DNA of 64,000 bases, from positions 62,001-126,000 of the forward strand of contig NZ_SBIT01000015.1 of NCBI RefSeq assembly GCF_004765785.1. The letters are read 5' to 3'. Shown here piece after piece: positions 41,606-42,547 of the stretch. The notes below the pieces were generated by a model, which did no database searches, had not been told where the DNA came from, and saw nothing but the letters and a program-made list of their open reading frames with translations. The stretch comes from Halorussus ruber (GTDB lineage: Archaea > Halobacteriota > Halobacteria > Halobacteriales > Haladaptataceae). Position 1 is the stretch's first letter. Each line of letters opens with the position of its first letter. The position numbers and the translations under genes were made by a program.

Positions 41606-41613
41606 GACTAGAA

Positions 41614-41623
41614 AAGATATATT
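41614..41623 (+). promoter_or_regulatory. TATA box of the amidase gene, sets its start
   Basis: AAAGATATAT lies 30-39 bases before ATG 41653. It makes the upstream TTG at 41629 an unlikely start and supports a short or leaderless message. Confidence 0.55.
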
Positions 41624-41652
41624 ACTGATTGGCTCGTTTGAATTTATTGCAG

Positions 41653-42255
41653 ATGAGTTCGAGACGAAACTTCCTCAAGAAGCTCGGTGCAGCAAGTACA
41701 GCAGGACTCGCAGGGACGGCGGCCCTGTCGGGCTCCGCCGCGGCGGACATGCCCGCGGTCGACTGGGTGCCAGCCGACTCCAGCAACTACACGAGTGCGA
41801 ACCGCGGTGCGAGCGAGATTAACTGGATCATCATCCACACGGTCCAAGGGTCGGCCAGTAGTGCAGTCAACTGGTTCCAGGACCCCGACGCCGACGTGAG
41901 CGCCCACTTCACCACCGCCGAGGACGGCTACCTCTACCAGAGCCTCTCGGAGATCAACATCGGCTGGCACGCTGGTAACTGGAGCTACAACGAGACTTCC
42001 GTCGGCATCGAACACGGCGGCTACGTCAGCGAACCCTACCCGGACGCTCAGTACCAGAAGTCCGCCGACCTCGTCGCCTACCTCTGCGAGGAGTACGACA
42101 TTCCGAAGCAACGCGCCACGTGGGTGCCCGACGACGCGTGGGACAACACGACCGGCGGCATCATCGGCCACGAACAGGTCCCCGGCAGTAGCCACACCGA
42201 CCCCGGCGACTACTGGGACTGGGACTACTTCATCGACCTCGTCAACTCGTACTGA
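41653..42255 (+). CDS. Tat-exported N-acetylmuramoyl-L-alanine amidase (Amidase_2/PGRP fold)
   Basis: A 200-residue secreted hydrolase. MSSRRNFLKKLGAASTAGLA is a Tat signal cleaved near SAAADMP. The mature domain is an Amidase_2/peptidoglycan-recognition fold: zinc His in WIIIHTVQGS, the strand FTTAEDGYLYQSLSEINIGW, HAGNWSYNETSVGIEHGGYV (His and Glu), and GHEQVPGSSHTDPGDYWDWD (second zinc His and Asp). These enzymes cut the bond between muramic acid and the stem peptide of bacterial peptidoglycan. Archaea of this class have no peptidoglycan, so the enzyme probably acts on competing or prey bacteria, and the gene was probably acquired from bacteria. Confidence 0.9.
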   Translation: MSSRRNFLKKLGAASTAGLAGTAALSGSAAADMPAVDWVPADSSNYTSANRGASEINWIIIHTVQGSASSAVNWFQDPDADVSAHFTTAEDGYLYQSLSEINIGWHAGNWSYNETSVGIEHGGYVSEPYPDAQYQKSADLVAYLCEEYDIPKQRATWVPDDAWDNTTGGIIGHEQVPGSSHTDPGDYWDWDYFIDLVNSY

Positions 42256-42328: not shown

Positions 42329-42547
42329 ATGGACTACACCGTCCAGTACTACGACCTCGTGCTGGTCGCCATCTTCGCCACGATGGGTCTCGGCGCGGGC
42401 GTCGGCGTCTTCACGCCGCTCGCGCTCCCGACCGCCGTGACGGTCGCGGGCGTGGCCGCCGCACTCCTCATCGCCCACGGCCTGTTCGTCAACGGCCCGG
42501 TGGACGGCCCCGAGGACCTGACCGACGAAGTCGACGCGCTGAACTGA
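42329..42547 (+). CDS. small two-helix membrane protein (72 aa)
   Basis: MDYTVQYYDLVLVAIFATMG begins a protein of two hydrophobic helices (LVLVAIFATMGLGAGVGVF; VTVAGVAAALLIAHGLFVNG) with an acidic tail (VDGPEDLTDEVDALN). The family is common in haloarchaea and uncharacterised. It lies between the amidase and Acs in the same direction. Confidence 0.7.
   Translation: MDYTVQYYDLVLVAIFATMGLGAGVGVFTPLALPTAVTVAGVAAALLIAHGLFVNGPVDGPEDLTDEVDALN

Follow-up and report, generated by a model that had tools for sequence, protein, structure and literature searches.

Amidase gene and its product

What use an archaeon could have for a secreted peptidoglycan amidase is the question raised by a gene of Halorussus ruber located in the window studied here (the whole stretch of DNA that was analysed, 64,000 nucleotides in length). 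The preliminary description of this gene proposed a Tat-exported Amidase_2 enzyme, acquired by transfer and directed at the walls of co-occurring bacteria. The open reading frame encodes a protein of 200 aa (Table 1). Amidase_2 (PF01510) is its single Pfam domain and scores 112.9 bits, the cut-off being 26; no wall-binding domain was found in the protein by the Pfam search. The NCBIfam Tat signal profile TIGR01409 gives 19.1 bits, which is above the curated cut-off of 16.7 and confirms the proposed export signal, and the Arg pair of the signal peptide (R4 and R5) is invariant in the alignment of relatives. The mature amidase is very acidic, with a pI of 4.05 and only two Lys and two Arg residues. 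The mean pI of the compact haloarchaeal group is 4.5 versus 5.8 for the Streptomyces relatives.

Table 1. Features of the amidase locus (positions in the window).
Feature	Position	Strand	Evidence or remark
BRE/TATA element CTAGAAAAgaTATATTA	41608..41624	+	Same approximate spacing in syntenic Halorussus orthologues
CDS, predicted secreted N-acetylmuramoyl-L-alanine amidase (Amidase_2), 200 aa	41653..42255	+	Exact open frame, Pfam, structure match
Tat signal peptide, residues 1-31 (SRRNFLKK, hydrophobic stretch, AAA-D)	41653..41745	+	TIGR01409 above cut-off; cleavage point by eye
Amidase_2 catalytic domain, residues 54-186	41812..42210	+	PF01510, E = 1.7e-32
H62 codon, zinc ligand 1 (AmpD His34 position)	41836..41838	+	Alignments
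E120 codon, catalytic Glu (AmpD Glu116 position)	42010..42012	+	Alignments
H173 codon (GHEQ), zinc ligand 2 (AmpD His154 position)	42169..42171	+	Alignments
H181 codon (SSHTDPGD), AmpD Lys162 position, no zinc ligand	42193..42195	+	Alignments
D183 codon (TDPG), zinc ligand 3 (AmpD Asp164 position)	42199..42201	+	Alignments
Neighbouring gene, 72-aa hydrophobic protein	42329..42547	+	Position conserved; functional membership only putative

Fold and active site

The AlphaFold model, built from 26 related sequences, has a pLDDT of 86.6, and the signal peptide is its only poorly predicted part. The top structural match of the model is AmpD (Z 19.9, rmsd 2.0, 149 residues), followed by the endolysin LysCS, XlyA, AmiA, and LytA. 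T7 lysozyme is matched with a Z of 13.8, and the model has the AmpD/T7 lysozyme fold, in agreement with the Amidase_2 assignment.

The active site was read from an alignment that included relatives from haloarchaea and bacteria and from an alignment with AmpD, the residue numbers of which are given in Table 1. The His-His-Asp/Cys set of zinc ligands and the catalytic Glu are all present, as H62, H173, D183, and E120. Two zinc histidines had been named in the preliminary description, one in the IIIHTVQGS motif and one in the SSHTDPGD motif. The former (H62) is indeed a ligand; the latter (H181) stands at the position of AmpD Lys162 and therefore is not, and the site is complete all the same. 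In the sampled intact haloarchaeal copies, both His ligands and the Glu are retained, the third ligand being either Asp or Cys, and no clade that had lost its zinc ligands was seen among these copies. Cys replaces Asp as the third ligand in one haloarchaeal subgroup (L174, L180, L206, and related loci), as in T7 lysozyme.

Relatives of the protein are annotated by NCBI as "peptidoglycan recognition family protein", which would suit an inactive PGRP-like sensor or binder; however, none of the three zinc ligands has been lost, nor has the catalytic Glu, and such a role is very improbable. Judging by the sequence, the protein is secreted and very probably an active peptidoglycan amidase; of what had been expected of it, the secretion and the intact active site are well supported.

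AmpD is a cytosolic enzyme that recycles anhydro-muropeptides. AmpD and AmpDh2 (PDB 2y28, 4bol) have the fold, the zinc site, and the catalytic Glu in common with the H. ruber amidase. In contrast to AmpD, the H. ruber protein has a secretion signal and a His at the Lys162 position, and with the AmpD equivalog profile NF008758 it scores 56.8 bits, below the cut-off of 143.

Cell wall enzymes of the host

The profile search of the H. ruber genome indicated that the PBP transpeptidase (PF00905) is absent. The sole Mur_ligase_M match in the genome lies in a long FolC-FolP-like frame, presumably a FolC-FolP fusion of folate synthesis. Since both results leave no sign of a murein of its own, the view that H. 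ruber is an organism without peptidoglycan was upheld, and its own peptidoglycan was ruled out as the substrate.

The gene studied here is the only Amidase_2 of the genome. Profile searches for M23, Glucosaminidase, and AnmK found none in the genome; thus, as far as these families are concerned, there is no wider set of genes for wall degradation or muropeptide recycling. A PG_binding_1 fragment was detected elsewhere in the genome, in a 73-aa frame (L227:1501-1611), and may be what is left of a further wall-active protein.

Promoter and neighbouring genes

The TATATTA sequence (41618-41624) is located 3' of CTAGAAAA (41608-41615). In the syntenic Halorussus orthologues, the CTAGAAAAnnTATATTA motif, slightly varied, precedes the ATG by approximately as many nucleotides as in H. 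ruber, and this conservation bears out the suggestion that the gene has a TATA box of its own. The spacing between this element and the ATG is consistent with an almost leaderless mRNA of the haloarchaeal type.

In most Halorussus genomes that contain a copy more than ~68% identical, the amidase gene has two metabolic genes on its flanks, one methylmalonyl-CoA mutase-like and the opposite one acetyl-CoA synthetase-like (presumed names, given after sequence resemblance). At most of the syntenic Halorussus loci, the gene of the 72-aa hydrophobic protein separates the amidase gene from the synthetase-like gene. As this protein has no Pfam match, nothing marks its gene as an immunity gene, and no clear match to it was found at non-syntenic amidase loci; it was rejected as an immunity partner, in line with the earlier claim that the amidase has none. 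An archaeal producer would need no such partner. In one Halorussus genome, an M23 peptidase with a Tat signal (PF01551, E = 8.5e-28; L136:8601-9371) is encoded directly behind the amidase orthologue, and the two genes may form a two-enzyme wall-degrading pair.

It is extremely unlikely that the gene is a remnant of a prophage endolysin. The domain is matched by PHROG endolysin families, and endolysins of Cutibacterium phages are ~31% identical; on the other hand, the protein has a Tat signal, its metabolic neighbours are conserved between species, and far closer kin are found on haloarchaeal chromosomes and plasmids. A search for a related viral contig found none, and with the phage matches being only distant, a viral origin was discarded.

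Distribution and conservation in haloarchaea

A match was found in 14 of the 18 Halorussus genomes, and one of the four genomes where it is missing is 62% complete. The relative from H. amylolyticus is 88% identical. The locus is syntenic in most of the Halorussus genomes compared; other copies in the genus sit elsewhere, and some of them are plasmid-borne. Pairwise dN/dS values against the syntenic orthologues are ~0.16-0.45, which indicates purifying selection. It is a long-standing gene of Halorussus and no recent arrival. In one Halorussus species, a frameshift close to residue 57 interrupts the orthologue (L139:8001-8640), which reflects either decay of the gene or an error in the sequence.

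Amidase_2 of any form was detected in 65 of the 392 Halobacteriales genomes sampled (about one sixth), belonging to 19 of the 95 genera; single genomes of one genus in the family of H. ruber contain as many as five copies. Among Archaea beyond the Halobacteriales, the phylum sample contained three genomes with Amidase_2, one of which is below the family cut-off. A Tat-like motif is present in 82 of the 85 haloarchaeal copies, and additional domains were identified in some of them: SH3_3 (21/85), PG_binding_1 (8/85), and Glucosaminidase (3/85).

The conservation of the genomic position and the promoter across Halorussus might be expected if the enzyme had been recruited to envelope turnover, with a surface glycan or a poly-amino-acid of the archaeon itself as the substrate. 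This is very improbable, however, given that the gene is missing from the four Halorussus genomes mentioned and frame-shifted in one more, that most of the Halobacteriales genomes have no Amidase_2, that some relatives carry peptidoglycan-binding domains, and that the active site is of the standard type.

Phylogeny and origin of the gene

The preliminary description called for a phylogeny with bacterial and archaeal Amidase_2 proteins. On a tree that comprises 152 sequences, the haloarchaeal rows, 86 in number, are all on one side of a branch. On a bootstrapped tree with an outgroup, the sampled haloarchaeal Amidase_2 proteins form a single clade with 100/100 support that lies within bacterial, mainly actinobacterial, sequences, and the archaeal protein from outside the Halobacteriales (one sequence) forms a very long separate branch. 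The sequences nearest to the haloarchaeal clade are those of Actinomycetota, and since the support for this union is 84/86, the exact donor is not settled. The bacterial sample was gathered with patterns derived from the H. ruber protein and may for this reason lack a bacterial donor that is closer.

The topology suggests one old transfer from bacteria followed by descent, duplication, and spread. Thus, of the proposed acquisition by transfer, the bacterial origin is supported, with the haloarchaeal clade nested in bacteria, whereas an acquisition by this particular strain is not, the event being old, apparently single for the haloarchaeal class sampled, and followed by genus-wide synteny.

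Proposed function and comparison with known enzymes

We infer the activity, substrate, and ecological use of the enzyme as follows. It is likely a secreted amidase of bacterial ancestry that acts on the peptidoglycan of neighbouring bacteria and either kills or weakens competitors or digests dead ones. For the haloarchaeal class sampled, the ancestral gene would have been acquired a single time from bacteria, with Actinomycetota as the most likely source, and would then have undergone adaptation to high salt, duplication, and diversification. The small zinc amidase would leave the cell folded via the Tat pathway and would cleave peptidoglycan of bacteria nearby at the bond that links N-acetylmuramic acid to L-alanine. 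Lacking a wall-binding domain, the enzyme would probably cut walls while diffusing freely. The outcome may be competing bacteria killed or weakened, or dead bacteria digested. Bacterial peptidoglycan, the target put forward from the start, is well supported as the likely substrate: the context of the haloarchaeal relatives, with the SH3_3, PG_binding_1, and Glucosaminidase domains of some of them and the adjoining M23 peptidase in one Halorussus genome, points to it, while the single-domain make-up counts against it, as no binding domain ties the protein to peptidoglycan. The lack of M23, Glucosaminidase, and AnmK matches in the H. ruber genome likewise weighs against the explanation given here.

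In a survey of archaea, Strock et al. 2025 (PMC12352652) looked for peptidoglycan hydrolases that combine a catalytic domain with one for wall binding; they reported such enzymes in 175 of 3,706 genomes, stressed their patchy distribution, and described two Halogranum enzymes that kill the halophilic bacterium Halalkalibacterium halodurans. The present finding is not conceptually new, since both the idea and the killing by these two enzymes were published there. The definition used in the survey comprises a peptidoglycan-cleaving catalytic domain, which the H. ruber amidase has, and at least one cell-wall-binding domain, which it lacks, and for this reason it falls outside the definition. Archaeal peptidoglycan hydrolases are hereby extended to a compact class beyond the published definition, which is present in most Halorussus genomes.

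The two enzymes of Halogranum salarium, Woldo (M23) and Danwoldo (glucosaminidase), are haloarchaeal and Tat-exported like the H. ruber amidase, but they belong to other catalytic families and have two PG_binding_1 domains each (PMC12352652), whereas the H. ruber protein has none. Peptidoglycan cutting has been shown for Woldo and Danwoldo and is predicted for the H. ruber amidase. Killing of bacteria is likewise experimental for the former pair (PMC12352652); the H. ruber protein is known from its sequence, by which it is a well-preserved and unusually simple member of the class of archaeal antibacterial enzymes first shown to kill in 2025.

The same enzyme might serve mainly nutrition, digesting the peptidoglycan debris of dead bacteria rather than killing live ones. 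This is a narrower reading within the explanation given above, and our confidence in the two overlaps; we consider it a real possibility that falls somewhat short of an even chance. One locus is kept genus-wide under purifying selection, unlike the patchy pattern of weaponised enzymes, and scavenging was explicitly left open by Strock et al. (PMC12352652); however, the recycling gene AnmK was not found in the genome, and both haloarchaeal peptidoglycan hydrolases tested in that work kill live bacteria. Stable presence throughout the genus fits general scavenging as well as a weapon. Returning to the broader reading, in which live or dead bacteria may be the target, such a long-lived syntenic gene contrasts with the patchy picture of an arms race, and the simple single-domain protein is suited to asking whether archaea kill or feed with such enzymes.

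The chances seem evenly balanced that one old transfer of an actinobacterial amidase gave rise to a whole class of secreted haloarchaeal wall cutters, inherited mostly vertically in Halorussus, the single-domain members of which escape surveys that require a binding domain, and that archaeal attack on bacterial walls is commoner and older than reported.

Compact Tat-exported Amidase_2 proteins of Streptomyces are also single-domain, have a Tat signal and the same active site, and are ~45% identical to the H. ruber amidase; in contrast, their producer has its own peptidoglycan, and they are less acidic. The modular haloarchaeal Amidase_2 proteins with PG_binding_1 or SH3_3 share the clade, the Tat signal, and the catalytic domain with the H. 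ruber amidase but differ from it in the presence of wall-binding domains and, in some of them, in Cys as the third zinc ligand. In haloarchaeal proteins of 871 aa (L147:7392-10004, L148:7392-10004), Amidase_2 is combined with a DUF900 alpha/beta hydrolase region and SH3_3 repeats.
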